From Candidatus Pacearchaeota archaeon (GTDB lineage: Archaea > Nanobdellota > Nanobdellia > Pacearchaeales > GW2011-AR1): a stretch of 34,937 bases of DNA. Shown piece after piece: positions 1 through 15,629 of this stretch. Numbering within the stretch: the stretch's first letter is position 1; each line of letters opens with the position of its first letter. The translations under genes were made by a program, and so were the position numbers. Below the pieces are notes generated by a model, which was given only the letters and a program-made list of their open reading frames with translations, did no database searches and was not told where the DNA came from. The stretch covers positions 1-34,937 of the forward strand of contig JAGVWU010000005.1 in the NCBI GenBank assembly GCA_018304145.1, in the 5' to 3' direction.

Positions 1-2
1 TT

Positions 3-89
3 TTACAGAATAGTAATTTTCAAACAGTGAGAGAGGCTATGGATAGAATTTCAAACTATTTTGAAAAGGAGGGATGTATTATGACGTAG
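3..89 (+). CDS. 3' end of a gene starting outside the window
   Basis: Frame 3 of the plus strand is open from the window edge to a TAG at 87-89, giving 28 residues that end in NYFEKEGCIMT. The composition looks protein-like, but the piece is too short to assign. It would converge with, and overlap by 11 bases, the end of the minus-strand gene at 79-552. It could be a chance open frame. Confidence 0.4.
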   Translation, partial: LQNSNFQTVREAMDRISNYFEKEGCIMT

Positions 90-552
90 TGTACTTAACA
101 GCCTCACCAGAGTATTTCTTCTTAATAGTAAACCAAATCCTATTTGATTCTTTATCAAAAAATGGAGTTGGATAAAAATCGGGCTTAACATAAAGGTCTT
201 TGATTGTCCTATCTATTTTTCTTAGTCTCCTAATTAATCTAAGTGAATAAGATTTTAAACTTTCGATATTAAAATCATCTAATTTTATTTCCGAGAATTG
301 TGGGTCTTTAATTTTTCTCTCAAGATGCTTTAGAAATATATCTAAGAAAAAAGACTTCTCTTTTAGAGATTTGTTTTTTAGAATACTAATTATTTTACTT
401 TTATCTTTCGATGCTGATGGGATAGCCAAATTAATCTCTTTAGAGTATTTGCTATAGAAATTTTCGATATTTGCATCCAAATCATTAGAAGGTTTTATTC
501 CCAACTCTTTCCAAAAGCCCTTGCCATTTAAGTCAATAATATCCATAACCAA
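79..552 (-). CDS. Hypothetical protein, last gene of the MoxR/VWA operon
   Basis: This is a 157-residue, lysine-rich, mainly helical protein with no motif I recognise. It has no signal peptide or membrane segment. The basic stretch LRLIRRLRKIDRTIKD near residue 105 could contact nucleic acid or an acidic partner, which is speculation. It lies 32 bases downstream of the 180-aa gene in the same direction and is probably co-transcribed with it. The first codon is TTG at 552, eight bases after a GAGGG; an ATG at 546 is the alternative start. Function unknown. Confidence 0.7.
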   Translation of the reverse strand: MVMDIIDLNGKGFWKELGIKPSNDLDANIENFYSKYSKEINLAIPSASKDKSKIISILKNKSLKEKSFFLDIFLKHLERKIKDPQFSEIKLDDFNIESLKSYSLRLIRRLRKIDRTIKDLYVKPDFYPTPFFDKESNRIWFTIKKKYSGEAVKYTTS

Positions 553-584
553 CCAATAAAACCCTCGTATAAAGAATTAACGCT

Positions 585-1127
585 TTATCTTAAAAACTCA
601 AAAACATAATCTTGATTCTCAATTCGTTTAGCAAGTGATAAACCTAATCCTTTTAGAGCTACTTCAGTGCCTTCGCTACCACTTCTTCCAAATACAACAC
701 TGGCTAAACTATTGTCTTTCCCGAAGCAGAAGATATGAGAAAGTTGCGATTTATCTCCTAAACTATATGCATGATCCAAGCCCATTTCTATTAATTTGCT
801 ATATCTTTCTGAAGTGAGATCTTTAACATCATATCTCCTAAATGGAATTTTTTCTCCATTTTCGGTATATGTTCCTTCTCGATCTATCACAACAACATCT
901 TTCCCACCAAATCTAACTACAATTAAATCATCTTTTCTGTATAATCTAACCTGTCCGATAGACTTACTTGTTTCTGGATCAACAATTTCTTCTTTAGTTA
1001 TATCTCTAGTACCAGGTCTTAAAATAAAATCAGTGTAAATCAATCCAATTCTTTCTACAGGATTTCCTAACTTTAGGATTTGAGTTTTATTCTCTTCTCT
1101 ATCAGTTCTGATTAAGTATCTGTTCAT
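585..1127 (-). CDS. 180-aa protein resembling the N-terminal domain of the neighbouring MoxR ATPase
   Basis: The protein appears soluble and rich in beta strands, with no known catalytic motif. Compared by eye with residues 1-150 of the MoxR-type ATPase (5078-6511), it is collinear. RRYD at 97-100 matches RQYD at 91-94 there, EMGLDHAYSL at 114-123 matches ESGFSHGYKL at 113-122, and LASVVFG at 141-147 matches RAVLVTG at 141-147. I infer a shared domain, used once fused to the ATPase and once alone. It starts two bases after the VWA gene stop, so translation is probably coupled. A role as adaptor or substrate-recognition subunit is a guess. Confidence 0.75.
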   Translation of the reverse strand: MNRYLIRTDREENKTQILKLGNPVERIGLIYTDFILRPGTRDITKEEIVDPETSKSIGQVRLYRKDDLIVVRFGGKDVVVIDREGTYTENGEKIPFRRYDVKDLTSERYSKLIEMGLDHAYSLGDKSQLSHIFCFGKDNSLASVVFGRSGSEGTEVALKGLGLSLAKRIENQDYVFEFLR

Positions 1128-1129
1128 TT

Positions 1130-2926
1130 TTATTTTGCTATTCCATATGTTTTAAATAATCTAAACATTTCTCCAGGGAGTTCATGTAATTTGTCTCTTT
1201 CCACAATCACATAATGATCATTACCAATATCTCCAGTAAGATGTTTTGCGTATTTTTCAAACTCTTTACCTAACACAATTAAGAATGGATGAATTTTTCT
1301 TTTGTATAACTCTTGTATAACTGGTCTTGGATCTCCTCCAAGATTAGCATCACCATCGGTAATTATTGTTATTCCTTTTGGTTGTTCTAGTTGTCGATCC
1401 AATAAACCTGCAACAACCTCTAAGCTTGGAGCAAGAGCAGTTCCATCATGACTTCTTCTCACAGATAAGATTTTTCTAGCAACAGATTCACTATATTTCT
1501 CCGTAAAATCTTTTAGTACATATAAATCTCCTGAAAAAGCAAATAATCCAAAAGGATAATCTGAGTCACCCAAAGCTTCTCCTTGAATAAGCAGACTTGA
1601 TTTAATTCCGTCTATAATATTAAAGTACTCAGGGTCTGTTGAAGGACTTATATCTGCCAATACTGCCCAAGCAGGTCTTTGTTGGTTTTGAGTGTCTTTG
1701 ATAAAAACTCTTCTTTCTCTTCTTACGCCAGTAACTTTAGATTCTAGTTCTCCCTGCATAAATTCTTCATAATCTAATTCTGCCCCTTCAAAATCTCTTT
1801 TAACACCATAATGTCTTAATTTTAGTTGCCTAAATATTCTACGCGTACTTTCTATTTCTCCAGCATATTGCAATTTCCTTTTCTGTAAAAGTTCTTGTAT
1901 TTTTTTATCGGTACAATTTGCAACTGGGCAAATATCTATTCCATGTTTTTCAGTGAGATCAGTGTAAAGAGCATTTCTGTCTCTTTTGTATAACTCTTCC
2001 TTTCCCCGTTCATCTAAAGTAGATTCTTCGTTTTCATCTTTCCCACTACCTTTTTTATCTTTAGAGTCTTTGTCTGGTTCATATAATTTTTTTCCATCAC
2101 GAGCTTTTTCAGATAGTTGTTTTGGTTTTTTATCATTAGGATCTCTCCCTTCTCTTGGTTGAGTTTGACCTTGATAGCCTTGTTGTGGACTACCTTGAGT
2201 TCTTGAATTATCTCCCGTATTATATCTCGGAGGCAATCTACTTATTTTTTGAGTTATGTCGAAATTGTCCTTTAATCTTCTATATATTTGTTTAACTACT
2301 TCGGGGTCCATTTGTATTGAACCGGATGATTTAGCAAGTCTAACAGCTTCTTCTAGCAATTCTTTTTTCTCTTTAGGAACTGATTCCACAGTTTCGCCGA
2401 TTAATGTTTGTTGTAAAAATTGTTCTCTGAAAGCATCTAGTTCAGACATTCTCACAATACTCGGTCTAAGATATTTTGTTGCAGGATTAAGAGTTTCCTT
2501 ATAAAATCTGTCTACACCCGATAACTGTCTTCTTCGAGAATCAATTCTATGGTCTTTTACAACATTATCAATCCAGCCAGCCAAAGCAGGATTTTCTGTT
2601 AGCTCCGCGTAATTTCTTTGATGATATTCTTGAACAGCATTTGAACCAGTTTCTGCAAAAGAACTTGGATCTTTTTCAAAATACTCACCATATTCTACAA
2701 TGTGATCAGACTCGTGAGCAGTAAAGTTAGCTAATGCTAATTCATTGTCTCTTTCAGAACCAAAAATACTTTCTTCTTCTGGTAAAAAAACTGAATGTCC
2801 ATCTGTTGCAGGAGTCATTCCTTTTTTTGCAACTATCGGATGTCTGGTTAATGCTTCCTCACCAACACGAAAATCTATAATCTGTTCCAATTTTCTAGAA
2901 ACAGATTCTGTTTTTACAGATGTCAT
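1130..2926 (-). CDS. NorD/CbbO-like protein with HExxH motif and C-terminal VWA domain
   Basis: This 598-residue protein has an N-terminal helical region with HESDH at 71-75, fitting the HExxH zinc-peptidase pattern, followed by DNVVKDHRID, which resembles the conserved region of NorD/CbbO proteins. A low-complexity acidic and basic linker lies around residues 230-310. The C-terminal von Willebrand A domain has a complete MIDAS: DISPS at 425-429, the Thr of HDGTAL, and ITDGD. In known families, MoxR-type ATPases (NorQ, CbbQ) work with such VWA partners, which recruit substrates for remodelling. The start at 2926 is supported by GGAGG upstream, located inside the last codons of the preceding gene. 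Whether HESDH cleaves peptides is unknown. Confidence 0.88.
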   Translation of the reverse strand: MTSVKTESVSRKLEQIIDFRVGEEALTRHPIVAKKGMTPATDGHSVFLPEEESIFGSERDNELALANFTAHESDHIVEYGEYFEKDPSSFAETGSNAVQEYHQRNYAELTENPALAGWIDNVVKDHRIDSRRRQLSGVDRFYKETLNPATKYLRPSIVRMSELDAFREQFLQQTLIGETVESVPKEKKELLEEAVRLAKSSGSIQMDPEVVKQIYRRLKDNFDITQKISRLPPRYNTGDNSRTQGSPQQGYQGQTQPREGRDPNDKKPKQLSEKARDGKKLYEPDKDSKDKKGSGKDENEESTLDERGKEELYKRDRNALYTDLTEKHGIDICPVANCTDKKIQELLQKRKLQYAGEIESTRRIFRQLKLRHYGVKRDFEGAELDYEEFMQGELESKVTGVRRERRVFIKDTQNQQRPAWAVLADISPSTDPEYFNIIDGIKSSLLIQGEALGDSDYPFGLFAFSGDLYVLKDFTEKYSESVARKILSVRRSHDGTALAPSLEVVAGLLDRQLEQPKGITIITDGDANLGGDPRPVIQELYKRKIHPFLIVLGKEFEKYAKHLTGDIGNDHYVIVERDKLHELPGEMFRLFKTYGIAK

Positions 2927-4033
2927 TTACTTACCTCCTTCTTTGCCCCTTATATCAATTGACCACGGATCAATAAAATCTGTTGGTAAGTCTGGAACTT
3001 CTTGAGATTTTTCTTTTGGTTTTTCTTTTATGGATTTTTTTTCTTCCTCTGATGACTTCTCTTCAGTAGGATTATCCTTACTATAATCTCTCCTTCCAAA
3101 TAACCATTGACCTGCTTCATAAATTGCAGGTAATCCTAACCTAACAGGATAGACAAGAGGATGCAAACTGTCAAGAATAATGAATCCTGGTAATGAATTC
3201 AAAAAAAATCTTCCTGCCATTGTAGCACCAACTGCATCTTCATCAATTTTCTTTCCTCTTTTATGTCGTCTTATAAGACTTGAAGCACCTAATAGTTGAG
3301 GAATTATAGCCCCCCCTAAAAGTCCTAACCAATAATTAAATTTAGTCTGTGTTGGAAACTCATCTGATAATTTTAAAACTTCAATTTTATGATTTGTCGG
3401 GTTAACATAAATTGATTTTCTAAATTCATCTTCTGGTGAATTAATTACATCATCTATGCCCAATTCATTTTCATCAACATTTCTATCCGCAGCCCCATTA
3501 TTAGTTCTACCGCCATAAAAACCTAAACCAGTTCCATAATTCCAAAAATCCCCTTTAGCAGCATATCCTGATAACCATTCCTCTTTTAAACGAAGATGTT
3601 TTTGGAATAATTTTAAATCAGAATTCATAGATTCATAAGCCCGAAGAAATTTCACCATAGATTCGTCTATCGCAGGTTTTTTTAATTTTCCATTGTTATC
3701 CAATAACTTTGCATCAATTTCTTTGACTGTTTGTCCCAATATTTTTTCTAACTCTGCAACATCTTTACTATCTATTCTTCCATCACGAGCTAGGGTTATA
3801 TAAGTTCTTTGATAAGCATTATATTCTTTTACTGCGTCTTTATAAAAATCATCTCCTTGTTGTGTTAGCTTTTCTGACATTGTCGCAACAGCTTCTGATT
3901 TTTTAAGAGGAGAAGTCATTTCTTGAGAATAAGCTGATTCAGTTAATCCAATACTACCTGCATAAATCGCAGTTGATACTAATCCCACAGCAATTCCTTT
4001 CTTAGCTTTTCTAACTAAATTCGATAAACTCAT
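2927..4033 (-). CDS. Exported membrane protein with IDPWSID tail
   Basis: The N-terminus (KKGIAVGLVSTAIYAGSIG, then AYSQE) looks like a signal peptide with a cleavage site near residue 35. A helical, presumably outer domain follows to about residue 230. Hydrophobic stretches begin at NYWLGLLGGAIIPQLLG and continue through GFIILDSLHPLVYPVRLGLP. The tail is charged and lysine/glutamate-rich, and ends with IDPWSIDIRGKEGGK. The upstream neighbour ends with a very similar tail. Start and stop codons overlap on both sides, so it sits in a translationally coupled operon with the ATPase and VWA genes. The fold and role are unknown; a membrane substrate or anchor for the ATPase machine is an inference. 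Confidence 0.82.
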   Translation of the reverse strand: MSLSNLVRKAKKGIAVGLVSTAIYAGSIGLTESAYSQEMTSPLKKSEAVATMSEKLTQQGDDFYKDAVKEYNAYQRTYITLARDGRIDSKDVAELEKILGQTVKEIDAKLLDNNGKLKKPAIDESMVKFLRAYESMNSDLKLFQKHLRLKEEWLSGYAAKGDFWNYGTGLGFYGGRTNNGAADRNVDENELGIDDVINSPEDEFRKSIYVNPTNHKIEVLKLSDEFPTQTKFNYWLGLLGGAIIPQLLGASSLIRRHKRGKKIDEDAVGATMAGRFFLNSLPGFIILDSLHPLVYPVRLGLPAIYEAGQWLFGRRDYSKDNPTEEKSSEEEKKSIKEKPKEKSQEVPDLPTDFIDPWSIDIRGKEGGK

Positions 4034-5076
4034 TATCTTTTCCCTCCCGAATTTAAATTATTAACGTTAATATCCCAAGGATTAATTATTTCTTGTTCAG
4101 GATCAGGTTCATTTATAACTTGTTTTGGTGCCTCATCTTTCTTTTTTTCCTGCTCCTTCTTTTTATCTGCCTTATCAACACGATACATAATGTATCCTAT
4201 GCCAGAGCCAGCCACCGCCAGAATTGCAGCCATTGTTAATCCAATCTCCCATCCATCTCCAACTCCGGGATGGACAAATTCATCTATTCTCTCACCAAAT
4301 CCAGACCAAGGAACATATCTTCTAGTCTTGAGTTCTTGCTGAACTTCTTTTTTTATTACATCATCTAATTCTTCAAGAGCTTTTGTTAATGGTTTTCCAA
4401 CTTCTCCGTTATAAGGATTTGTGTTATATCCTGATTTCGACTCTCCTTCCAATTGGTTTTTTTTAGCAAATTCTGCAAAATCAGCAAACATTTTTCCTGG
4501 ATAAGGTACTCTTTCTTTGGTATCTGTATCTACTAATTCTTCTCTTACATCTGAAGCAAAAAAATCAACATCTCTCTTAAATCTGGAGCCATTGTTATAA
4601 TGCAAATTTCCGTACATTGCCTGCAAATATTCATAATCTTTTATTGCTTCAACTAAAGATGTTTTTGCTTCCTTAGCTCTCTCTGGAGATAAATATCCTC
4701 TTTGTAATTCAGACTCAAGAACAGAAACTCCCTTTACTATATTATCCTGACTACCTTTCATGTAATTAGCCATAGTTGAAACATACTCGGATAAATTTTT
4801 AACTTCTATAGAACCATATTTCGGATGAGTTATTACAAATGCTCCATTATTTTCCCTTCGGGTAAGAACTTTTCCTTGTTTTTTCGCTTCTTCTATGTCT
4901 GCCTTTAATCTCTCATTAGTATCATATTTTTGTGGGTTTGCTGCCCTATCTTGAGAGGGAGTATTACTTTCTTGAGCGTAAGATTGATTGATTCCTCCAA
5001 AAACAGATAATCCCAAAGCTCCAGCTACTAAAATATTTCTGACTGTTTTTCCAACTGAGTTTTTTTTTGATTTCAT
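4033..5076 (-). CDS. Exported membrane protein with INPWDIN tail
   Basis: The signal peptide (RNILVAGALGLSVFGG, then SYAQE) is followed by a long outer helical region. One clear membrane segment (GLTMAAILAVAGSGIGYIMY) follows, then a lysine-rich cytoplasmic tail ending in INPWDIN and a GGKR terminus. I chose ATG at 5076 because GGAG lies six bases upstream and it begins just after the ATPase stop; the ORF track start at 5088 would overlap the ATPase gene. The stop overlaps the next start as TAATG. Architecture and tail match the downstream gene, so the two may be distant paralogues or act as a pair. Function is unknown. Confidence 0.82.
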   Translation of the reverse strand: MKSKKNSVGKTVRNILVAGALGLSVFGGINQSYAQESNTPSQDRAANPQKYDTNERLKADIEEAKKQGKVLTRRENNGAFVITHPKYGSIEVKNLSEYVSTMANYMKGSQDNIVKGVSVLESELQRGYLSPERAKEAKTSLVEAIKDYEYLQAMYGNLHYNNGSRFKRDVDFFASDVREELVDTDTKERVPYPGKMFADFAEFAKKNQLEGESKSGYNTNPYNGEVGKPLTKALEELDDVIKKEVQQELKTRRYVPWSGFGERIDEFVHPGVGDGWEIGLTMAAILAVAGSGIGYIMYRVDKADKKKEQEKKKDEAPKQVINEPDPEQEIINPWDINVNNLNSGGKR

Positions 5077-5077
5077 T

Positions 5078-6511
5078 TTAAACTCCATATTTGTCTAATA
5101 TTTTCATAAGTTTACTATGAAGTCTCCCATTACCAGAGTCTACATCATTTTCATAAGTAGTTATCGGATTAACAACACTTTCCTCGAAAAGACTTCTTAA
5201 TGGAATTTCCGTTCCACTCATTATTCTTTGTGCTACTTCTACAGGTCCCTTGAGACCCAAATCTTTTGAAAAACTTCTTGATTCATCCCTCATTTCAGCA
5301 GTAACTTTTGTAATCAATTCAGCAGTTTCATAATCTAAACCTGGTGCACGAGCAAGTAAAATATCTGTAGTATTTTCTCTTGTAGGATAACCCATTTTTA
5401 TTTGAGAAAATCTTTGCAAAAGAGCATCATTGAGTTCATTAGTCGTATATGCACTATGGAAATTTCCAGTAGATACTAACCTAAAGTTAGGATGAGCAGT
5501 TAGAGTTTCGTGACCGAATTGAGTAATTAATGGTAGCTCTCCTGTTTCTAAAAACATATTTAATCCAGTAAGCTCATCTTGAGGAATCGGAGGCATTTCT
5601 TCTAAAACATATAAACCCCCATGAATCGCAGCTAATGTTAATGAGCCTGGTGAAAAAGTAGGTCCCTCTGCTGCTGGAACGAATTTACCAATCGCTGTGC
5701 TCAGTCTGAAAGATGAACTCCCAGTATCAAAGTAATATGGCAAACCTCTCGCATTTGCATAATCTCTTGCTAAAACAGTTTTACCATTACCTGTAGGTCC
5801 ATTAAGAATGACTGGTCTTAAACCACTATCAAGATATTCAAATAATCTGTCTTTTTCTCCATTCTGATCTTGATAAGCAAAAACTTTTTGTAGCATTCTT
5901 GGTTTAAATCTTTCTTTAACAAATCTAGCAAATGCTCCTTGCTCTTCAACAACTTTTGTTGTGATTAAAGCTTCCCTTTGAGGTATAGCTTTTTTTACTG
6001 TTTTTCCTTCCAGATCCTTATTTATCTTATCAAAAAGAGCAACAGGAAGAAAAGGCATAAAAGGAGAATCGCCTGTTACCAGCACTGCTCTTTGACCTCC
6101 ATCTCTTTCATAGAAACTTAATGAGCCTGTTTCTTCAGGACTTCTTAATTTGTATCCATGAGAGAATCCAGATTCTTTTTGTTTTTCAGCTTCTCCAACA
6201 GCCAAATCTTCTAATCCAACTCTTCCTATGTCATACTGTCTGGTTCCTGTTTTTAATCTAAGTCTGTTATTACCCTCTATAACTAAATTTACCGTTGAAC
6301 CATTGTGCGATAACATAACTCTATTTCGTTCAGGTAAATATGAACTAATCATTCCAGCTAAACCATTTCCATCTGTAACAATTTTATAACGAATAGGAAT
6401 TGTAACTTCATCTGCTAATTCAGGGTATTGTATTTCAGCTTGTGGTTTTCTGCTATCTAGGTCTATAACAACTGCTTTCTTATCCTGAAAGTCAACCATA
6501 TATTTAGCCAT
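5078..6511 (-). CDS. MoxR-type AAA+ ATPase with a unique N-terminal domain
   Basis: Residues 1 to about 160 form a beta-rich extension not typical of MoxR proteins and similar to the separate 180-aa protein of this operon. The AAA+ module follows: Walker A GPTGNGKT at 238-245, Walker B LYVLEEM at 300-306 (Glu-Glu where Asp-Glu is usual), sensor 1 STGN near 347, and an arginine-finger region ALLQRF near 365. The pattern is that of the NorQ/CbbQ/GvpN branch, ring ATPases that remodel target proteins together with a VWA partner. The partner gene lies three genes downstream. A GGAGG sits upstream of the start inside the preceding 48-aa gene. Confidence 0.92.
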   Translation of the reverse strand: MAKYMVDFQDKKAVVIDLDSRKPQAEIQYPELADEVTIPIRYKIVTDGNGLAGMISSYLPERNRVMLSHNGSTVNLVIEGNNRLRLKTGTRQYDIGRVGLEDLAVGEAEKQKESGFSHGYKLRSPEETGSLSFYERDGGQRAVLVTGDSPFMPFLPVALFDKINKDLEGKTVKKAIPQREALITTKVVEEQGAFARFVKERFKPRMLQKVFAYQDQNGEKDRLFEYLDSGLRPVILNGPTGNGKTVLARDYANARGLPYYFDTGSSSFRLSTAIGKFVPAAEGPTFSPGSLTLAAIHGGLYVLEEMPPIPQDELTGLNMFLETGELPLITQFGHETLTAHPNFRLVSTGNFHSAYTTNELNDALLQRFSQIKMGYPTRENTTDILLARAPGLDYETAELITKVTAEMRDESRSFSKDLGLKGPVEVAQRIMSGTEIPLRSLFEESVVNPITTYENDVDSGNGRLHSKLMKILDKYGV

Positions 6512-6512
6512 T

Positions 6513-6659
6513 TTATTCAGCTTCCTCCAAAACCTTAATATTAATTTCTACAATCGTACTGGGTCTTAATTCGTCTCTTAATAGCTTTGGAATAACAATT
6601 ATAGAATTCTCTCCATGTTTTGCAATTCTTTTTCTTATCGTATATTCTTTCTGTTTCAT
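6513..6659 (-). CDS. 48-aa AbrB/SpoVT-like peptide, first gene of the MoxR operon
   Basis: This gene is absent from the ORF track. It encodes 48 residues starting MKQKEYTIRKRIAKHGENS, with core SIIVIPKLLRDELRP and then TIVEINIKV. The pattern 'basic residue, hG.S..I.IPk.lr..l..g..v.i' is that of AbrB-type swapped-hairpin DNA-binding domains. Its stop is two bases before the MoxR start, and the MoxR ribosome-binding site GGAGG lies in its final codons. It could autoregulate the operon or act as an antitoxin-like DNA binder. A promoter TATA lies about 50 bases upstream. Confidence 0.72.
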   Translation of the reverse strand: MKQKEYTIRKRIAKHGENSIIVIPKLLRDELRPSTIVEINIKVLEEAE

Positions 6660-6705
6660 TTCAAGTTTATTACAATTTTTATCTAAGAAAATTGTGGAAA
6701 TGGAC

Positions 6706-6713
6706 TATTTAAA
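6706..6713 (-). promoter_or_regulatory. TATA box of the MoxR/VWA operon
   Basis: On the minus strand TTTAAATA, preceded by AGAAAGG as a possible BRE, lies about 50 bases upstream of the 48-aa gene. Transcription would start near 6681, leaving a short leader. It is the only clear archaeal promoter I see for the operon from 6659 down to 79. Confidence 0.55.
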
Positions 6714-6739
6714 CCTTTCTACTTGTAACTACTTAATAA

Positions 6740-6919
6740 TTACACTAATAGCTGTAAACTTGTTCCGTCAGGATAAATTTTACATTTTCCTTCCCGTACT
6801 CCTTTGAGCTTTTTGTTAATCAAATCTCCAACCATTAAAACAGCATCAACAGTTTTATCAATTTCTTTCTTAGTAGAATTTAAACCTTTTTCTGTCTTAA
6901 CTGTAATAATTATTTTCAT
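6740..6919 (-). CDS. Small hypothetical protein (59 aa)
   Basis: I set the start at ATG 6919 (MKIIITVKTEKGLNS) rather than the track's TTG at 6934. A TATA box TTTAAATA at 6941-6948 lies 25 bases upstream of 6919, which fits a leaderless mRNA, while the TTG start would be too close to it. The sequence suggests a beta strand, a helix (KEIDKTVDAVLMVGDLINKK) and a terminal beta hairpin (KCKIYPDGTSLQLLV). No family is recognised. It is transcribed separately from the MoxR operon, in the same direction. Confidence 0.6.
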   Translation of the reverse strand: MKIIITVKTEKGLNSTKKEIDKTVDAVLMVGDLINKKLKGVREGKCKIYPDGTSLQLLV

Positions 6920-6940
6920 AACAATAAAAATCAATTCTAA

Positions 6941-6948
6941 TATTTAAA
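6941..6948 (-). promoter_or_regulatory. TATA box for the 59-aa gene
   Basis: TTTAAATA on the minus strand, centred 25-26 bases before the ATG at 6919, predicts a leaderless transcript and decides the start codon. Confidence 0.55.
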
Positions 6949-6961
6949 GATTGCACGAGTT

Positions 6962-7567
6962 TTACCAAATAGTCATTCCGTCTTCAATCTCTTCATTATT
7001 ATTATTTTCTTCAGAGTTATCTTCTTCTTTGTCCCTATAGTCTTCCATTTCACATAACTGACCAACTCTCGGAGTATTAATTAAATAGGGACTAGGTCCG
7101 CGTCTATTTTGTGTTAATCCTTTCTCTCTGTCTTGTTCTTCGGCATAATTTAATTCCTGCTGATAAAACTTCCTATCTTCATCTGTTGTTGCTAATCTTA
7201 GATTCCTTAAAATGTTTTTATGAATCCTAGGAACAAACTTCCTTTTTCTTTTCTTGTAGCTGGTATAAGTTGGTTCTATTTTATAGTATCTATCATCACA
7301 TATGAACTTTAGAAACAAAAAGAAATGAGGTGATGTTGGAGTTCTGCCAAGACACATGTAATGTCCTTGCCCAAAATTTTCATGAATAAAATATACAAAT
7401 TCAGAGGTAGTTCTTATTGGTCCATTACCTACTGTTTCAAATATCTTTCTGCTGTCTTCTTTCTGAATCTCATGCAAGGTTTTCCAGTCTATTCTTATTT
7501 CATGATTTCTTTGATACTTAGTAGGGACCTCCGTCTTTCTTTTTATCTGAATCCATATTTCATTCAT
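6962..7567 (-). CDS. Hypothetical protein with acidic tail
   Basis: This 201-residue soluble protein has aromatic- and lysine-rich beta segments (KFICDDRYYKIEPTY), a basic region (KKRKRKFVPRIHKN), and a strongly acidic, asparagine-rich C-terminus after residue 175. I recognise no domain. It overlaps the start of the next minus-strand gene (7560-7874) by eight bases, so the two are probably co-expressed, with the 104-aa gene first. Its position beside an integrase suggests mobile-element cargo, which is an inference. Confidence 0.68.
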   Translation of the reverse strand: MNEIWIQIKRKTEVPTKYQRNHEIRIDWKTLHEIQKEDSRKIFETVGNGPIRTTSEFVYFIHENFGQGHYMCLGRTPTSPHFFLFLKFICDDRYYKIEPTYTSYKKRKRKFVPRIHKNILRNLRLATTDEDRKFYQQELNYAEEQDREKGLTQNRRGPSPYLINTPRVGQLCEMEDYRDKEEDNSEENNNNEEIEDGMTIW

Positions 7568-7874
7568 CTCTTACTCTCCCGAACTCTTTAGCTCTTTCGA
7601 ATAATTCATTAGTCTTTCTTATCTTATTATCGTATCCTTTGATAGTTGCCAATTCCAACAACTCTTTAGCATATTGTTTTAGTTTTTCATTCTTAGACTT
7701 TTTGATTACATAGTCTATTATTAATAATCTAATAGAAGTAGAAAACCTTCCAAGATTATGTGTACAATGAATTTCTATGTCCCTGTCTTTTAGAATAAGC
7801 TGTTTGAATTCTTCGATTATTGGAAAGAACTTGTCGTTATATATTATGTGGTCTATTTCATGTCCTTGTGGCAT
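7560..7874 (-). CDS. Hypothetical protein (104 aa)
   Basis: This small protein begins MPQGHEIDHIIYNDKFFP and is then mostly helical, with charged repeats such as KKSKNEKLKQYAKELLELA. Histidine and cysteine residues (IEIHCTHNLGRF) are grouped near residue 35 but form no recognised metal site. It heads a two-gene unit with the 201-aa gene (eight-base overlap) and is divergent from the winged-helix gene at 8029. Function unknown. Confidence 0.66.
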   Translation of the reverse strand: MPQGHEIDHIIYNDKFFPIIEEFKQLILKDRDIEIHCTHNLGRFSTSIRLLIIDYVIKKSKNEKLKQYAKELLELATIKGYDNKIRKTNELFERAKEFGRVRDE

Positions 7875-7965
7875 TTTATTTAATTTTCTGTTTTATCGTC
7901 GGTTTAATTAAAATACTAACCTTACTATTCTTAATAAAGGTTGTCCGTCGAGAATTGTAATTAAT

Positions 7966-7989
7966 AAGTTATCACAAGTAACCTATTAC
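7966..7989. promoter_or_regulatory. Candidate operator upstream of the winged-helix gene
   Basis: AAGTTATC at 7966-7973 and CCTATTAC at 7982-7989 lie just upstream of the TATA-like CTTTTTAA (7999-8006) that would drive the regulator at 8029. CCTATTAC recurs as the right arm of the inverted repeat beside the integrase start, so the regulator may bind both sites. This is inferred from sequence matches only. Confidence 0.4.
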
Positions 7990-8028
7990 CTCCGATAGCT
8001 TTTTAACCACTTATTACATAATCTTATT

Positions 8029-8298
8029 ATGAAAAAATCAGATAGGGCAGATAATTATGTTTCTGAACTTGACTTAGAGATTTTAAAAGCCTTAGATAAG
8101 AAAAGTGGTTATGGTGTAGTTGAAATAAGAGAAAAGCTTAAAGTTAATCCTCGTACAGCAAGAAGACATCTCATCAGATTACAAAAATTAAAACTAATAG
8201 AACGAAAAAGAGTTGATAAAACAAACAGAGCAGAACTTAGCATTACAGATTATGGTAAACAATTGTTAGAGCTATTTAATAAAATCTTAAAGAATTAA
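8029..8298 (+). CDS. Winged-helix transcriptional regulator
   Basis: An 89-residue protein with a clear winged helix-turn-helix: LDLEILKALDKKSGYGVVEIREKL, the recognition helix NPRTARRHLIRLQKLKLIERKRV, and a wing at NRAELSITDYGKQLLEL. This is the classic archaeal small HTH layout of the ArsR/MarR-like type. ATG 8029 is about 26 bases after CTTTTTAA, consistent with a leaderless mRNA. Its end overlaps the convergent integrase gene by four bases. It probably controls itself and the integrase, since both promoters carry the same CCTATTAC half-site. Confidence 0.85.
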   Translation: MKKSDRADNYVSELDLEILKALDKKSGYGVVEIREKLKVNPRTARRHLIRLQKLKLIERKRVDKTNRAELSITDYGKQLLELFNKILKN

Positions 8299-9497
8299 TT
8301 TTTCTCAACTTTTACTATTTTAGCTATATCTTGCACCTGTTGCATTTCTATCATATTGGATTTTATAATATTCGCAAGTTCGGCTATCTTTTTCTCAAGC
8401 TCTTTATTTTTTATATCACTGGCAAGTTTTATAGTTTCAATTTCATGTTTCAGTCCGCCCATCTCATTCTGCTCCACTTCCTTATCTAACTCCTCACTTA
8501 AATCTCTACGCCTAGCATATCTCCGAATCATTGGACTTCCGAATTGCCAGCCGTAGCGATACGAAAATTGGTGGTCATTCTTTATGATGTAAATATAATG
8601 ACTACAAGATGCATGCCTTAAAGCATGATAATGAATACTTCTTCCGATTGTTCTTTTTCCTAATCTGTGGAGAAACTTTCTCATAAGAGGATAACCTTTT
8701 GTAAATACAGGGTCAGTTGGTTTTGCTCCTTCTCTTAACCTTTCATTATAAAATTCTGTTATAATCTTGGTGCTATGTTTCCAGTAGCAGCTTATAATTC
8801 TTCCTTTAGTTTTTGAATACTCTTCTCGCACTCTCATCTTAATAAAATTTTCATCTTTCTTAGGAAAAATTACATCTTCCATTCTAATGTTATGAAATTC
8901 CTCAGCTCTACATCCGGTATCAAATAAAACATCAACAAAGTATCTTTCTTCGTTAGTTTTACAACCATCCAATATTTTTTCTACTTCATTTTCCTGAGGA
9001 GCATATACCTCTTTTACCTTCCCGCCCATTTTGATTTTTAATATCTTAATGAATTTGTATGCTTTCTCATCTAACTTCCAGTTCAAATAAAGTATCAAAG
9101 TATTCCTAATTGAGATTTTCTTGTTCTTAGCATAAGGTCTTTTGCACTTTACTGTGGTTATTATTTCTTCTCCATTAACTGTTTTTTCTTCCCTCTTTAG
9201 CCTAGAGTATCCAAGTTCATCTTTTACCATTGCTTCATGCAATCTCCTAATATCCTCTTCCTTTAGTTTTGACACTGGTTTTTTAAAAAATTCCAGAGCT
9301 ATTTTCATATCGCTTAAATAAACTGATAAACCCCCATCCTGAACGACATTGCCTGTTAATTCTCCCATTTGTAATGCCCTCATCCAGTCTTCCTGTATAT
9401 CTTTCTTGTCTTTTGCATCAATCTTCCATTTAGAAACCGCAGCTATCTTTTTCTTCATATTTATTATTCTAAGCGGTATTTTATCTGTTTCTGACAT
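8295..9497 (-). CDS. Tyrosine recombinase / integrase (XerC/D-like, archaeal)
   Basis: A 400-residue site-specific recombinase. The N-terminal SAM-like core-binding domain spans about residues 25-145. The catalytic domain has Arg197 in DTGCRAEEF, the HxxR box HALRHASCSH (H291 to R294), and the nucleophile Tyr327 in MIRRYARR. The C-terminus beyond residue 335 is a predicted coiled coil (EVEQNEMGGLKHEIETIKLA) that is longer than usual. It would cut and rejoin DNA for integration or excision of an element. An inverted repeat starts three bases upstream of the gene, and tRNA-Gln lies 0.5 kb away, a typical integration target. Confidence 0.92.
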   Translation of the reverse strand: MSETDKIPLRIINMKKKIAAVSKWKIDAKDKKDIQEDWMRALQMGELTGNVVQDGGLSVYLSDMKIALEFFKKPVSKLKEEDIRRLHEAMVKDELGYSRLKREEKTVNGEEIITTVKCKRPYAKNKKISIRNTLILYLNWKLDEKAYKFIKILKIKMGGKVKEVYAPQENEVEKILDGCKTNEERYFVDVLFDTGCRAEEFHNIRMEDVIFPKKDENFIKMRVREEYSKTKGRIISCYWKHSTKIITEFYNERLREGAKPTDPVFTKGYPLMRKFLHRLGKRTIGRSIHYHALRHASCSHYIYIIKNDHQFSYRYGWQFGSPMIRRYARRRDLSEELDKEVEQNEMGGLKHEIETIKLASDIKNKELEKKIAELANIIKSNMIEMQQVQDIAKIVKVEKN

Positions 9498-9499
9498 TT

Positions 9500-9533
9500 T
9501 AAGTAATAGGTATATTAGGTATCCTATTACTTA
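9500..9533. promoter_or_regulatory. 11-bp inverted repeat upstream of the integrase (operator or recombination site)
   Basis: TAAGTAATAGG at 9500-9510 and CCTATTACTTA at 9523-9533 are perfect reverse complements separated by 12 bases. The repeat sits immediately before the integrase ATG (9497) and between divergent genes. It could be the operator of the winged-helix regulator or a core site for the recombinase. Confidence 0.65.
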
Positions 9534-9547
9534 ATGTACATTAAGGT

Positions 9548-9556
9548 ATTTATAAG
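9548..9556 (+). promoter_or_regulatory. TATA box of the HepT-like gene
   Basis: ATTTATAAG is centred 27 bases before the ATG at 9579, which fits a leaderless archaeal transcript. The inverted repeat at 9500-9533 lies just upstream, so both divergent genes could be co-regulated. Confidence 0.5.
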
Positions 9557-9578
9557 CTTTTCTACGTTAGAATAAATT

Positions 9579-9929
9579 ATGGGACAGTTTTGGGCTCGAA
9601 TTTATAAAATTTATTTTGAGCAAATATTATTAATGATTGATAAAATAGAAAGTTTCACTAACAACACTAGTTATGAAGATTTTTCAAAGGATGTGAATCT
9701 TATTGATGCAACTATAATGCGTTTGCAGGTTATTGGTGAAAATATGTCAAATATCCCTTACTCATTAAGAAAACAACATAAATCAATACGCTGGAAAACT
9801 TTTCTTAATATGCGAAACTTTTTTTCACACAAGTATTCGGCAATAAACCATGAATTGCTCTGGCAGATTGTTAAAAATAGAATACCTGTTTTAAAAGAAG
9901 AAATAACAAAGATTATGCAAACAATTTAA
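9579..9929 (+). CDS. HepT-like HEPN ribonuclease (DUF86), orphan toxin
   Basis: This 116-residue, all-helical protein has the family's RX4HXY active-site motif as RNFFSHKY at residues 79-86, preceded by the typical ATIMRLQVIGENM helix. HepT proteins are RNase toxins. Their partner MntA, a minimal nucleotidyltransferase, blocks them by adding AMP to the motif tyrosine. No nucleotidyltransferase gene lies next to it here, so it is either orphan or neutralised from elsewhere. The tail before R-x4-H (VIGENMSNIPYSLRKQH) matches the family well. Confidence 0.85.
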   Translation: MGQFWARIYKIYFEQILLMIDKIESFTNNTSYEDFSKDVNLIDATIMRLQVIGENMSNIPYSLRKQHKSIRWKTFLNMRNFFSHKYSAINHELLWQIVKNRIPVLKEEITKIMQTI

Positions 9930-9954
9930 GATACTGAAAATCCTTTTGCTCGTC

Positions 9955-9978
9955 GAACCTTCAGGTTCAAATTCCTGA
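9955..9978. repeat. Overlapping hairpins, T-arm-like
   Basis: GAACC-TTCA-GGTTC (9955-9968) overlaps TCAGG-TTCAAATT-CCTGA (9961-9978), so only one can form at a time. The second resembles a tRNA T-arm but has an eight-base loop. It lies between the convergent HepT gene and tRNA-Gln and may be a terminator or a decayed tRNA fragment. Confidence 0.35.
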
Positions 9979-10019
9979 GACATTATTAAATGAATATTCG
10001 CTTTGGGAGAATATTTTAA

Positions 10020-10092
10020 TAGCCCCGCCAGGATTCGAACCTGGGTTACAAGCTCCAGAAGCTCGTAGACTTGACCGCTATCTTACAGGGCT
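10020..10092 (-). tRNA. tRNA-Gln (anticodon CUG)
   Basis: The reverse complement folds into a full cloverleaf. The acceptor is AGCCCTG with CGGGGCT, the D-stem AGAT with GTCT, the anticodon stem CGAGC with GCTTG around loop TTCTGGA, and the T-arm CCAGG-TTCGAAT-CCTGG. The anticodon is CTG and the discriminator base is A. CCA is not encoded. The A1-U72 first pair is the known identity feature used by archaeal GatDE to convert Glu-tRNA-Gln. The variable loop is a short four bases. Confidence 0.95.
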
Positions 10093-10116
10093 GTTTTTTC
10101 ATCAATGAACTTACTA

Positions 10117-10126
10117 TTTAATATAT
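10117..10126 (-). promoter_or_regulatory. TATA box of tRNA-Gln
   Basis: On the minus strand ATATATTAAA is centred about 29 bases upstream of the first base of the mature tRNA, placing the transcription start at or just before the 5' end. Confidence 0.5.
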
Positions 10127-10220
10127 CAAAAATAACTTCAAATCATTTATAAAATTATCCTATTGTTGCTTAAACGCACATCATACAAATTCTTAAAAAC
10201 CAGTTATTTTTATTTAAACT

Positions 10221-10925
10221 ATGACCAGCATCATTGGAATTAAATGTGAAAAAGGTCTTGAAGGAGTGGTTGTTGTTTCAGATTTTAGTGGTACTCAAAC
10301 TAGGCTAATTAATGATGGAATTGATACTGCTCACTATGAAAGAAGAAGAACAGCATCAAAAAAATTATATGTAGACCCAAAAAGAGAAGTTGTAATAGGA
10401 ACTTCTGGACAGACTAATCTTCATGGATATTCTAATTTTTTATCAAAAATACTAAAAGATAGTTCTTTAATAAGAAAGGCAATAAGAAGAACTGTTAAAA
10501 CTCATCATCTCAAAGAACTTAAGAAATTAAATATGCAAATAGCTCGATCAAACCAAGACTCTAATCCTCCGTTAATAAGAATTCTTATTGCAACAAGATA
10601 CAATAATGATTCAAGATTATTTCAATCTGATGAAAATGGTTATCTTTTAGAAGTTCCTTATGTTCTTTTAGGCTCAGGTGCAGGTTTAATGTATGAGTAT
10701 ATGTCCAGAAATCACAAAGTAATTCCAAGTGAAACTTCAATAACTGAAGGAATAGATTTAGGATTTAGATGTTTGCACGAAGCTTTTAGAGATCCTTTTA
10801 CAGGAGGCAGAGATTTAGTTGTTGTAACAAAAACAAGAATTGATGAATTAGGAAAAGAAATTAGGGGTGCTATAAATTATGCGAGAAGAATTGCAATTCA
10901 AGAAGCTATCAATCGTTATAAATAA
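10221..10925 (+). CDS. Proteasome beta-subunit-like Ntn hydrolase
   Basis: This 234-residue protein starts MTSIIGIK, so removing Met exposes Thr2 as a possible N-terminal nucleophile without a propeptide. VVVVSDF supplies the Asp at 21 equivalent to proteasome Asp17, and RTASKKLYVD supplies the Lys (K47) equivalent to Lys33. VIGTSGQ and the late helix TEGIDLGFRCLHEAF also fit the fold. It is more diverged than a housekeeping beta subunit and has a 60-residue insertion region rich in lysine and arginine, so it may be a paralogue or an HslV/Anbu-like peptidase. A TATA-like TTCTTAAAAA at 10190 predicts a leaderless mRNA. Confidence 0.8.
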   Translation: MTSIIGIKCEKGLEGVVVVSDFSGTQTRLINDGIDTAHYERRRTASKKLYVDPKREVVIGTSGQTNLHGYSNFLSKILKDSSLIRKAIRRTVKTHHLKELKKLNMQIARSNQDSNPPLIRILIATRYNNDSRLFQSDENGYLLEVPYVLLGSGAGLMYEYMSRNHKVIPSETSITEGIDLGFRCLHEAFRDPFTGGRDLVVVTKTRIDELGKEIRGAINYARRIAIQEAINRYK

Positions 10926-10955
10926 TTAAAATTACAAATATACAATCAATAACTT

Positions 10956-10969
10956 TATATATTTATAAG
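10956..10969 (+). promoter_or_regulatory. TATA region for the EF-Tu domain-2-like gene
   Basis: TATATATTTATAAG would place transcription initiation near 10980-10995, exactly where two tandem hairpins begin. This gives the downstream gene an unusually long leader of about 100 bases for this genome. Confidence 0.4.
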
Positions 10970-10981
10970 TTTTATATTATA

Positions 10982-11065
10982 AATGTTAAAATTCCCTTAA
11001 TTGGGAAAGAATTTCAACATGGAAGGTAGAAAGAATTTTTATAAAATTCTTAGAACCATTCCATT
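10982..11065 (+). ncRNA. Two tandem long hairpins: structured 5' leader or small RNA
   Basis: Hairpin 1 (10982-11018) pairs ATGTT-A-AAATTCCC with GGGAAAGAATTT-C-AACAT around TTAATT, with a three-base bulge. Hairpin 2 (11019-11065) pairs ATGGAA...AAGAATTTT with AAAATTCTT...TTCCAT around TAT; its inner nine base pairs (11031-11039 with 11043-11051) are perfect. They abut with no spacer and precede the gene at 11083. They could be a regulatory leader or an independent RNA. No known riboswitch class is recognised. Confidence 0.5.
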
Positions 11066-11082
11066 TTAAACCAAAACAAAAA

Positions 11083-11334
11083 ATGGAAGGCAAACAAATA
11101 GGTGTAATTTTTAATTTTTTTGAAAAAGTCGGTGTAATTGCAATTGAACTTACAGACAAATTAAAAGTCGGAGAGACTATAAGGATTGTTGGAGGAGACA
11201 AAGATTTTACAGAAATTGTTGACAGTATGCAGATTGATGGAAAAAACGTATCATCTGCAAAAAAAGGCGACCAAGTCGGAATAAAAATCAGCGACAAAGT
11301 TCATAAAGGATATAGAGTTTTTAAGGTAAAATAA
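11083..11334 (+). CDS. EF-Tu domain-2-like small beta-barrel protein
   Basis: An 83-residue protein that matches the second (oligonucleotide-binding beta-barrel) domain of translational GTPases: IGVIFNFFEKVGVIAIELTDKLKVGETIRIVGG, later KKGDQVGIKISDKV and a terminal strand YRVFKVK. There is no GTPase domain. Stand-alone proteins of this type occur in archaea and their exact role is not established. A long hairpin-rich leader precedes it and repeat A copy 1 follows directly. Confidence 0.8.
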   Translation: MEGKQIGVIFNFFEKVGVIAIELTDKLKVGETIRIVGGDKDFTEIVDSMQIDGKNVSSAKKGDQVGIKISDKVHKGYRVFKVK

Positions 11335-11354
11335 TTCTAAATGTTCAATTAAAT

Positions 11355-11545
11355 TTTATGCCCTGACCGTGGGTGGAAATTCCCTTGATTTTATTCAAAT
11401 CCCATGTTGGGCATGGATTTGTGTTCGATGCCCCCAAGAGGGGTTGTGCATTGAACTATTCTTCAAGCTTTTTTTTCTTGTTTTTCCTCTTTTTGTTATT
11501 GTTAATGAATGTGAGCTGTTAAAGTTTATTTAGTTTTCTGTTTTT
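11355..11545 (+). repeat. Dispersed repeat A, copy 1
   Basis: About 190 bases, nearly identical to 26843-27029; its right half is also at 27838-27943. It contains three potential stem-loops: GGG-TGGAAATT-CCC; CAAATCC(C)ATG with CATGGATTTG; and GTTCGATGC-CCCC with GGGG-TTGT-GCATTGAAC. A pyrimidine-rich tract and GTTAATGAATG follow. It fills the gap between the genes at 11334 and 11599. Confidence 0.85.
11469..11494 (+). terminator. Poly-T tract, possible archaeal terminator
   Basis: Runs of T (TTTTTTTTCTTG, TTTTTCC, TTTTTG) follow the third hairpin of repeat A. Archaeal RNA polymerase terminates at such U-rich tracts, so this could end the transcript of the 83-aa gene. The same tract is kept in all three repeat copies. 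Confidence 0.35.
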
Positions 11546-11569
11546 AAGATGTTTAAAGCTATGAAAGAT

Positions 11570-11578
11570 TTTATAAAC
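11570..11578 (+). promoter_or_regulatory. TATA box of the surface-protein gene
   Basis: TTTATAAAC lies 25 bases upstream of the ATG at 11599, typical for a leaderless transcript. Confidence 0.5.
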
Positions 11579-11598
11579 TATAACCTCACGTCAATTAT

Positions 11599-12873
11599 AT
11601 GAGTAAGAAATTTGTCATATGTTTATCATTGATCGGTATCTTATTTTTTATTAATCTGGTAAACGCAGCAGAATTTGATGTTGAAATAGAATTGAATAAT
11701 TTTTATTATGGGGATGAAATCGAAGGTCTTGTAGAAATAACTGGAGATATAAGCGATATAGACTATATATCTTATCAATGGAATGTATGGTATACTGAAA
11801 GAGATGAACCACATATTTTTTATTGTCATCCTGAAGGGGATGACCAATGTGATTATATTTCTGATAATAAACTAAAACACACATTCAAAATAAATTCAAC
11901 TTATTTCACAGATTTAGGTGATGAAATTTTTGGAAGAGTTAAAATATTTACTAAATCTAGAAAGGAATTATTATTCTTAGGAGACTCAAGAACTCTTTCA
12001 AGTCGCCCATTAAAAATTGTTGAGTTAACTCTTGATGATAATAGTTACAAGCATGGAGCAACAATTAATCTTACTTCCGACAATTTTCAAAGGTATGGAT
12101 ATGTTGGAAGTTTAATAAAAAAGAAGAGTGTTCATCTACAATGCTGTGAGGGTCCTTACTGTTCTCCAGAGGATAATGATTTTTGTTCAGTTAGTAGTTT
12201 TGATAATGATAATCTTTCTTGTTCTGGAACTGCTTGGGGATACCTTGGAAAACAAATGATTGCTTGTAATCTTCGTGATTATAGTGGTTATTCCGAAACT
12301 AAAGAAATTTGGTTTGATATAGTTGAGGGAAAAATACCTTCTACCACTAATGAAGAAATCTCCCGTGAAGGAGTAAGATACGAAAAAGATTTGCTAAAAG
12401 CTCTTGAGGATAAAGATTTTGCAAAAAATCTTATGAAAGATGAAGACTTTATTGGTCTAGAAATTATAGATGGCAAAGTTTGGGCTAATGTTTTTATAAG
12501 ATTGAGAGATAAATCAAATATAGAGGATAATTATGAGGAAAACAATCTTTCTGGAGATGAGTGGTTTAGCTTAAAATCTGATGAAATTCTCTCTTCTCTT
12601 TCTAATGACGAATTTCTTTTTGTAGATAAACTTTCTAATGGATTTTCTGGAAAAATTTCTCTTGATGGATTTTTGAAGTTAAGAAAAAATGATGATATTA
12701 CTCTTATAAGTTGGCCCAAATGGAGATTAAAACTTCTTGATGGTTCGGGTCCCTTAGTAAGAAATGATTCTTATTATCTTGCTTACACTATTTCTATAAT
12801 TTTTATTATTGGATTCTTAATACTTATGATCTTTCTATTAAAATCAAAAAAGAAAAGGCACAAGAAAAAATAA
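11599..12873 (+). CDS. Exported, C-terminally anchored surface protein
   Basis: A 424-residue protein with a signal peptide (FVICLSLIGILFFINLVNAA), a large beta-rich outer part, and a single C-terminal membrane helix (YLAYTISIIFIIGFLILMIFLL) followed by a basic stop-transfer tail KSKKKRHKKK. It lies outside the cell with the C-terminus inside. Cysteines are paired (IFYCHPEGDDQC, LQCCEGPYC), suggesting disulfides. Around residues 255-300 it is helical and charged. No enzyme motif is seen. It is alone in its transcript, between repeat A copy 1 and repeat B copy 1. It could be a cell-surface adhesin or receptor. Confidence 0.82.
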   Translation: MSKKFVICLSLIGILFFINLVNAAEFDVEIELNNFYYGDEIEGLVEITGDISDIDYISYQWNVWYTERDEPHIFYCHPEGDDQCDYISDNKLKHTFKINSTYFTDLGDEIFGRVKIFTKSRKELLFLGDSRTLSSRPLKIVELTLDDNSYKHGATINLTSDNFQRYGYVGSLIKKKSVHLQCCEGPYCSPEDNDFCSVSSFDNDNLSCSGTAWGYLGKQMIACNLRDYSGYSETKEIWFDIVEGKIPSTTNEEISREGVRYEKDLLKALEDKDFAKNLMKDEDFIGLEIIDGKVWANVFIRLRDKSNIEDNYEENNLSGDEWFSLKSDEILSSLSNDEFLFVDKLSNGFSGKISLDGFLKLRKNDDITLISWPKWRLKLLDGSGPLVRNDSYYLAYTISIIFIIGFLILMIFLLKSKKKRHKKK

Positions 12874-13134: not shown

Positions 13135-13986
13135 TTATAATTTAATAGATTTTTGGGAATCTATTATTAATCTTATAAATAAAAAAATCATCTTATTTGT
13201 CATCATTTTGGTTTGCTCTTTTCTCTTTTGTGAGTAAGCAGAATAAAACATCATCATAGACATATTCTTAAGCAGTTTTTCCACATAATTTTGAATTTCA
13301 GAGAAGGGAAAATAAATTCCTTCTAAAAATAGGAAGACTTTTCCATCTATTTCTCTAGAATTTTTCTTTAATGGAATTCCAATTCTTACCTCTGTTCTGT
13401 TATTATATTTTCCAATCCATTTAATTATGTTTTTTTGTTCTTCTTCTAATCTTTCTTTAGTTGCTCTAATTTTTCTCCTTCTTAATTGTTTTTTTATTTT
13501 ATTTAGATTTAACATATAATTATATTCTCCGGTGGAATATACTTCTAATTCTTGGAACATAATCATGATATCTGTTAATAATTGCTTATATTTGCTTGCT
13601 TCTTTTTCATTTCTAATCAATTTTAATAAGTTATAATGCACTTTTTTACTTCTCGGAGTATAAATATAATATCCCCTTACTCTAGTATCATATTTTATAC
13701 CAAAATTTTCTTTTATAAATCTTTTATTTTTAGGAGTTTTTCCTATAAAGAAAACTTTATAATTGTTTATTTTTTTTCTTAATTCTTTTTCAATTCCTTG
13801 CCATACAGTATTTTTTACCCCTACATTAATTAATTCTTTTTCTATCTCTTTTATTGTCCAAATATTCTGCATAAAAATAATCCCTTCTTTAAATTGTCCT
13901 CTTTTTTCCTTTTGTATTATTTCCTCAATTTGCCAATATTTGCCATTTTTAAGCCTAGATTCCTCATATTTTTTTATTATATCCAT
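13135..13986 (-). CDS. Hypothetical lysine-rich protein (283 aa)
   Basis: A very basic soluble protein with helical segments (EIEKELINVGVKNTVWQGIEKELR, then YNLLKLIRNEKEASKYKQLLTD) and an arginine/lysine cluster KKQLRRRKIRATKERLEEE around residue 165. The N-terminal half (IWTIKEIEKELIN) could be a winged helix, but I am not sure. It shares one promoter region with the plus-strand RHH and Rep genes: the TATA TTTTTTAAAC at 14007-14016 lies 25 bases upstream of its ATG. Possibly plasmid-derived; function unknown. Confidence 0.65.
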   Translation of the reverse strand: MDIIKKYEESRLKNGKYWQIEEIIQKEKRGQFKEGIIFMQNIWTIKEIEKELINVGVKNTVWQGIEKELRKKINNYKVFFIGKTPKNKRFIKENFGIKYDTRVRGYYIYTPRSKKVHYNLLKLIRNEKEASKYKQLLTDIMIMFQELEVYSTGEYNYMLNLNKIKKQLRRRKIRATKERLEEEQKNIIKWIGKYNNRTEVRIGIPLKKNSREIDGKVFLFLEGIYFPFSEIQNYVEKLLKNMSMMMFYSAYSQKRKEQTKMMTNKMIFLFIRLIIDSQKSIKL

Positions 13987-14006
13987 AAAATAGGTAACTA
14001 TATGCA

Positions 14007-14030
14007 GTTTAAAAAAGTTATCTATTACAA
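14007..14030. promoter_or_regulatory. Shared divergent promoter with CTATTAC motif
   Basis: GTTTAAAAAAG can serve as TATA in both directions: 25 bases before the minus gene at 13986 and about 33 before the 37-aa ORF at 14046. AAGTTATC (14017) and CTATTAC (14024-14030) recall the operator-like bases at 7966-7989. Confidence 0.35.
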
Positions 14031-14045
14031 ACTATTTAACGAGTT

Positions 14046-14159
14046 ATGGAATATCAAGATAATAAAGACATTGCCGAAGAAATAATCTCGAAACTCAAGG
14101 AACTTAATGAGATATTAGACAATTTAATCAGGAGGTCTAAAGAAAATGGGGATGACTAA
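14046..14159 (+). CDS. 37-aa helical peptide upstream of the RHH gene
   Basis: Too short for the ORF track. It encodes MEYQDNKDIAEEIISKLKEL followed by NEILDNLIRRSKENGDD, a heptad-like amphipathic helix that could dimerise. It overlaps the next gene by 14 bases, and that gene's ribosome-binding site (GGAGG, 14131) is inside it, implying translational coupling. It may be an accessory subunit or only a leader peptide. Confidence 0.5.
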   Translation: MEYQDNKDIAEEIISKLKELNEILDNLIRRSKENGDD

Positions 14160-14388: not shown

Positions 14389-14550
14389 GAAACATACAAG
14401 ATTTTTACAGATTGTTTTTAATGTGATTTTTCAATAATGATTTATGATAAAAAGATTTCATAAATATTCTATATTGCAAATAAGAAAAATTATCGAGATT
14501 TTTCAATCAGTTCCTCTTCTTATTTTTTCAAATAAACAAATGAAAGGAGT

Positions 14551-14585
14551 CGCGGATTTTGGTAAGCGTAGCTCCAAAATCCGCG
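14551..14585. other. 12-bp-arm hairpin upstream of rep, candidate replication origin
   Basis: CGCGGATTTTGG (14551-14562) and CCAAAATCCGCG (14574-14585) are perfect reverse complements with loop TAAGCGTAGCT. It ends seven bases before the Rep start codon. HUH Rep proteins nick such hairpins at the double-strand origin. Part of the loop, GCGTAGCTC, also occurs in the IS200 hairpin at 34339-34362. A terminator or attenuator is the alternative. Confidence 0.55.
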
Positions 14586-14592
14586 TGTCAAC

Positions 14593-15618: not shown

Positions 15619-15629
15619 AAAATGAGAAA

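Follow-up and report, generated by a model that had tools for sequence, protein, structure and literature searches.

Client choice by MoxR AAA+/VWA machines is poorly understood and, to our knowledge, the known cases have each been worked out on one client. The locus considered here raises the question of why two neighbouring and otherwise dissimilar membrane proteins, encoded between such an ATPase and its VWA partner, should end in the same short tail. The window (the whole stretch of DNA analysed, 34,937 nucleotides) is contig C38 of an archaeal genome (G000, Candidatus Pacearchaeota; 1.15 Mb, 86.6% complete) and contains five contiguous minus-strand genes, which are given below together with the tail cores of the two membrane proteins, A and B.

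5078..6511, minus strand: AAA_5/MoxR ATPase, 477 aa (Pfam AAA_5, E 2.2e-11; PDB profile matches; alignment of three homologues)
4033..5088, minus strand: tagged membrane protein A, 351 aa, with signal-like N-terminus, ectodomain, transmembrane segment at 282-300, K/E-rich linker and tail
4063..4089, minus strand: tail core of A, IINPWDINV, its W being residue 338 of 351
2927..4033, minus strand: tagged membrane protein B, 368 aa, with signal-like N-terminus, ectodomain, hydrophobic segment at 236-254, K/E-rich linker and tail
2951..2977, minus strand: tail core of B, FIDPWSIDI, its W being residue 357 of 368
1130..2926, minus strand: VWA protein, 598 aa, NorD/CbbO-like, with long charged linker, finger-like segment and C-terminal VWA with MIDAS (Pfam VWA; NorD profile match)
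585..1127, minus strand: 180-aa core protein, a distant paralogue of the ATPase N-domain and candidate tail reader (kept in all three operons described below; profile match)

Protein A ends in EIINPWDINVNNLNSGGKR and protein B in DFIDPWSIDIRGKEGGK, both of which fit the pattern [FI]-[IV]-[DN]-P-W-x-[IV]-x-[IV]. These matching tails had been noticed in a sequence-only reading of the window, and they proved stronger than was claimed there. The best BLASTP segment between A and B is the tail (E 0.012), no BLASTP similarity is found once the last 40 residues are removed, and a p value of 0.002 (1 of 501) is obtained when one tail is shuffled. A and B each have a signal-like N-terminus, a hydrophobic segment and more positive charge on its C-terminal side (by hydropathy only), and thus their tails, which follow K/E-rich linkers, are predicted to be cytoplasmic, in agreement with the same reading. 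Direct homologues of A were absent from 55 relatives, a search with B in its own genome returned only B itself, and neither protein received an identity from Pfam, NCBIfam or PDB. Taken alone, the resemblance between A and B would be a modest coincidence, and the real test would lie in operons found through the core genes.

Since no homologues of A and B had been found, the operon core (ATPase, VWA protein and 180-aa protein) was traced instead. A scan of the genomes of 85,000 species with the ATPase yielded one close relative, L013 (contig C33 of G426, a Candidatus Pacearchaeota MAG from the same family as the window genome), whose ATPase, VWA protein and 180-aa protein are 65%, 51% and 47% identical to those of the window, respectively. 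A and B are absent from L013, and three different soluble proteins are found instead; two of these carriers end in HFINPWDIKIPRLEGKRK and PFVDPWKVQIPRIDKDG (tails HFINPWDIKIPR and PFVDPWKVQIPR), and the third ends in KRIWSIDIPKIPERK, with the tail KRIWSIDIPK, which is without DP. As all three tagged proteins of L013 lack a transmembrane segment, the earlier view of the tail as a trait of membrane proteins has to be given up. A search with the ATPase N-domain led to a distant operon, L052, in a genome of another family (G571; ATPase 32%, VWA protein 27% and 180-aa protein 25% identical to the window), whose two extra proteins have one transmembrane segment each and the C-termini LENPWKDHKKIYYGGKKNGKI and SKNIWDLMNEGDKDEPPRNRW; the tails here are LENPWKDHKK, in which the x-I-x-I half is lost, and a weaker NIWDLM. 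Without their tails, the tagged proteins gave no pairwise BLASTP match. The known tagged operons are thus three, two of them in one family, and the PW core is conserved in them on non-homologous proteins of homologous operons.

Two further ideas about the L013 carriers were rejected: that they arose as copies of the 180-aa domain or of the ATPase N-domain and then diverged, and that L013 8746-9573 has a nucleotidyltransferase fold, a guess made by eye from GS...DLDL that found no profile or PDB support. Elsewhere in L013, LAGLIDADG-like/intein-type insertions seem by eye to break a MinD-like ATPase gene and an SRP54-like gene (1905-2636 and 13689-16694). In the window, a 157-aa protein encoded past the 180-aa gene (79-552) ends in NRIWFTIKKKYSG... 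and faintly resembles KRIWSIDIPK of L013; its spacing differs and it was not counted as tagged.

The tails differ in strength. Those of A, B, L013 6633-7313 and L013 8746-9573 are strong, with a shuffle p of 0.002 in five of their six pairs and 0.020 in the sixth. Two are moderate. For L013 11356-11808, comparison with the two strong tails of L013 gives p 0.004-0.008, and comparison with A and B gives 0.08-0.13. For L052 3764-4204, p is 0.002 with A and 0.02 with L013 8746-9573, and it is 0.06-0.08 with the remaining two strong tails. The tail of L052 4164-5669 is doubtful, with no p below 0.08, and NIWDLM is not significant against any other tail. They are also rare. When the pattern PWx[IVM]x[IVM] was scanned for throughout G000 and G426, a search that the sequence-only reading had suggested, and each of the 26 DNA hits was read to its stop, matches within 15 codons of a real gene's end were limited to the four operon tails; the remaining near-stop matches belong to short frames that either have no ATG start or are 23 codons long. 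Of the 244 genes of at least 80 aa in all stretches retrieved, five have [DN]PW at a distance of 8-20 residues from the C-terminus, and all five belong to these operons. If the window is left out and only L013 and L052, which were found via core genes and not via the tail, are considered, it is present in three of five non-core genes versus 0 of 237 others (~4e-6, our own arithmetic). The [DN]PW tail is absent from ten neighbourhoods of more distant MoxR-VWA pairs of the same phylum. The VWA family itself was found in two of 181 genomes of the archaeal family (G000 and G426, a weak match in G388 being ignored) and, among 371 genomes sampled across the phylum, a strong match was present only in the window's own. 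Five scans of viral contigs with the ATPase or VWA protein gave no relative, phages gave no VWA match and matched the ATPase in the AAA core only, and plasmids held only distant VWA proteins.

With regard to the surroundings of the operon, a tyrosine integrase (8295-9497) adjoins tRNA-Gln(CTG) at 10020-10092, and a tRNA-T-arm-like remnant was seen by eye at ~9945-9985. The tagged operon may sit in an element integrated at the tRNA; an attachment-site repeat was not found within positions 1-12000 of the window. A proteasome-subunit-like protein (10221-10925; Pfam PF00227, E 1.2e-8) also adjoins the tRNA, outside the operon. The right half of the window (15924-31665) is a defence island with the following members.

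16550-21392: Type III restriction-modification
22322-23086: NucC-like/PD-DExK nuclease
23159-24665: Kiwa KwaA-KwaB
25517-26737: PDC-S01-like AAA_14/DUF4143 ATPase
29213-31665: Type II methylase-restriction pair

The tails stand at gene ends that double as the ribosome-binding regions of the next genes, and it might be asked if they are a binding motif at all or if gene ends have been copied by recombination or agree by chance. Most tails finish in G/A-rich codons, located 4-20 bases ahead of the next start, which bears out the earlier caution about the final GGK, and because these codons double as a ribosome-binding stretch, only the core up to W+4 was used. The tail core is ~20-50 bases upstream of the stop and does not overlap the ribosome-binding stretch, which accounts for the terminal G/K/R residues; its codons vary (CCT, CCG or CCA for Pro; ATT or ATA for Ile; GTT, ATA or ATT at the second hydrophobic position), so that conservation is at the protein level and not at the DNA level. 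With synonymous codons that differ, a hydrophobic pattern that is kept and unrelated carriers in three operons, copying or chance is hardly credible. We also consider it very improbable that the tail copies the conserved N-terminal segment of the kleisin ScpA, [VLI]-[DN]-[PI]-[WY]-x-I-x-[IV], with SMC or a different partner of ScpA as its docking site instead of the operon's machine. ScpA of the window's own genome has an internal LNPWDIDI, almost the same as the tail core (L020 9195-10169, contig C40), that of G426 has LDPWDVDI, and solved ScpA chains carry VDPWNIDI and IDIYDIPV, a PW/IY alternation like the PW/IW of the tails. However, the resemblance extends over seven residues only, the ScpA segment could be a common helix-capping turn, and a tag of this kind would be usable by every archaeon with ScpA, yet the tails are confined to a rare operon.

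The machinery that the carriers accompany was then compared with known proteins. The ATPase consists of a beta-rich N-domain of ~200 aa followed by a NorQ-like AAA module; Walker A is intact in all three homologues (GPTGNGKT/S), PDB profile matches are to midasin, CbbQ and NorQ, and the stretch that corresponds to the H2 insert motif GRxLL/I reads, by eye, GKFVP/GMFVP. For the VWA protein, the best solved match of a three-sequence profile is NorD (E 3e-12, over the finger region and VWA), and the alignment, at profile level only, starts ~60 residues ahead of VWA and spans the region named as the finger. Its MIDAS residues are D425-I-S-P-S, T496 and D524, and DxSxS-T-D is kept in the three homologues, as DxTxS in L013. 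By these profile comparisons, the ATPase and VWA protein look NorQD/CbbQO-like. What is new in the core is the 200-aa beta-rich domain before the AAA module and its 180-aa paralogue, whose profiles match each other with E 5.1e-6 (probability 86%) and whose predicted secondary-structure order is consistent, though in very poor models; two structure predictions (pLDDT 48 and 32) were too poor for interpretation or searching. Of the genomes searched, only G000, G426 and G571, which have the tagged operons, yielded the N-domain, and it is thus a candidate tail reader. A weak match in G558, a charged and coiled-coil-like ORF of 251 aa, was taken as chance.

The reading that we prefer, with a probability of roughly 55%, is that the tail acts as a transferable docking tag that would bring dissimilar clients to one NorQD/CbbQO-type AAA+/VWA remodelling machine. 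This machine would consist of the ATPase ring and the VWA protein, whose finger would presumably enter the ring pore, as it does in NorQD. Each client would have a flexible cytoplasmic linker ending in [FI]-[IV]-[DN]-P-W-x-[IV]-x-[IV], which a fixed core component would bind, and ATP turnover might then remodel, assemble or activate the client. Considering that the L013 carriers are soluble and the tails of A and B are predicted to be cytoplasmic, the tag would act in the cytoplasm, where the core must also be; the ATPase, VWA protein and 180-aa protein show no hydrophobic segment by the same hydropathy measure. The sequence-only reading had proposed a docking peptide for the ATPase or VWA protein. 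Docking on something in the operon core is favoured because homologous operons place this tail on proteins that are not homologous and because no other end of a real gene in G000 or G426 matches it. The partner may be the VWA protein, the extra N-domain of the ATPase or the 180-aa paralogue; we place the odds of the N-domain family (ATPase N-domain plus 180-aa protein) and of the VWA protein as reader at about equal. Binding of the MIDAS via an Asp of the tag is disfavoured because two of the four strongest tails have Asn at that position. The acidic residue shifts position between tails and no column of the tail is acidic throughout, which makes a plain MIDAS ligand improbable; a hydrophobic groove that accommodates W together with the alternating I/V residues is the likelier site. 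More tentatively, a dedicated reader domain, both fused and stand-alone, may recognise DPW such that any tagged protein becomes a client, and clients turn over while the machine stays. If the tail is a docking tag, the same nine residues on unrelated proteins would form a client code that could be tested with peptides and moved to other proteins, and in very reduced archaea the last 20 residues of an uncharacterised protein might allow its function to be predicted.

The gene order and the overlapping or abutting genes suggest a fixed stoichiometry, the tagged proteins number two or three per operon, and the two paralogous core domains could offer several docking sites. These observations would suit tags that join subunits, the tagged proteins and the 180-aa/N-domain proteins being one stable complex, membrane-bound or soluble, with the ATPase/VWA protein as a regulated subunit. 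We regard such a role as rather unlikely, considering that the wholesale replacement of tagged proteins between operons fits interchangeable clients better. It is more doubtful still that the tail is a degron or unfolding handle, gripped by the ring so that tagged proteins, also those in the membrane, are extracted or unfolded. An extreme C-terminus past a flexible linker is what unfoldases need, and the proteasome-like gene is near. However, processive unfolding is not known for NorQ and CbbQ, function is retained in CbbQ pore-loop mutants (PMC5437159), the NorD finger fills the pore (PMC13036017), and it would be unusual for an operon to encode a protein together with a signal for its destruction.

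A docking tag read by an AAA+/VWA machine may be compared with several known systems. An archaeal MoxR-vWA gene pair is also formed by vWA (ArnB subfamily) and a GvpN-like ATPase (PMC4858521); the ATPase studied here is not GvpN (TIGR02640, 57.4 bits versus a cut-off of 266.8), and neither pilus nor gas-vesicle genes were recognised in the operon. MoxR-VWA systems capture client peptides, and the vWA-MoxR ternary conflict systems (VMAP, iSTAND; Kaur et al. 2020, PMC7159879) likewise combine a MoxR-vWA core with variable partners, the right half of our window being a defence island. However, they couple via globular adaptor domains and the operon putatively via a short tail; VMAP, iSTAND or an effector-associated domain was not detected by Pfam or PADLOC, libraries that may lack such models. 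NorQ-NorD resembles the operon in both the VWA protein and the ATPase, and its client cNOR is also a membrane protein. The NorD finger lies inside the ring pore and the ring is gripped by the NorD C-terminus, not by a client tail (PMC13036017); a common client tag is not mentioned in the text consulted. Rubisco and cNOR (norCB) genes were not found by Pfam in the window or the L013 operon. In CbbQ-CbbO, a MoxR-type AAA+ again works with a partner with a C-terminal VWA and MIDAS, and a short C-terminal peptide of the client is needed (PMC8718961, PMC5437159): the RbcL motif KLDXXHK/R is required, and truncation or extension by a single residue abolishes activation (PMC8718961), with the CbbO MIDAS and an acidic residue elsewhere on Rubisco being needed too (PMC8718961, PMC5437159). 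By this analogy, the DPW tail may be the C-terminal part of client recognition. The operon differs from CbbQO in the extra 200-aa N-domain of its ATPase (477 aa versus the single AAA module of ~270 aa in NorQ/CbbQ) and in the stand-alone paralogue of that domain; moreover, CbbQ-CbbO serves one client family, Rubisco, through another motif, whereas the predicted tag of the operon is carried by unrelated proteins.
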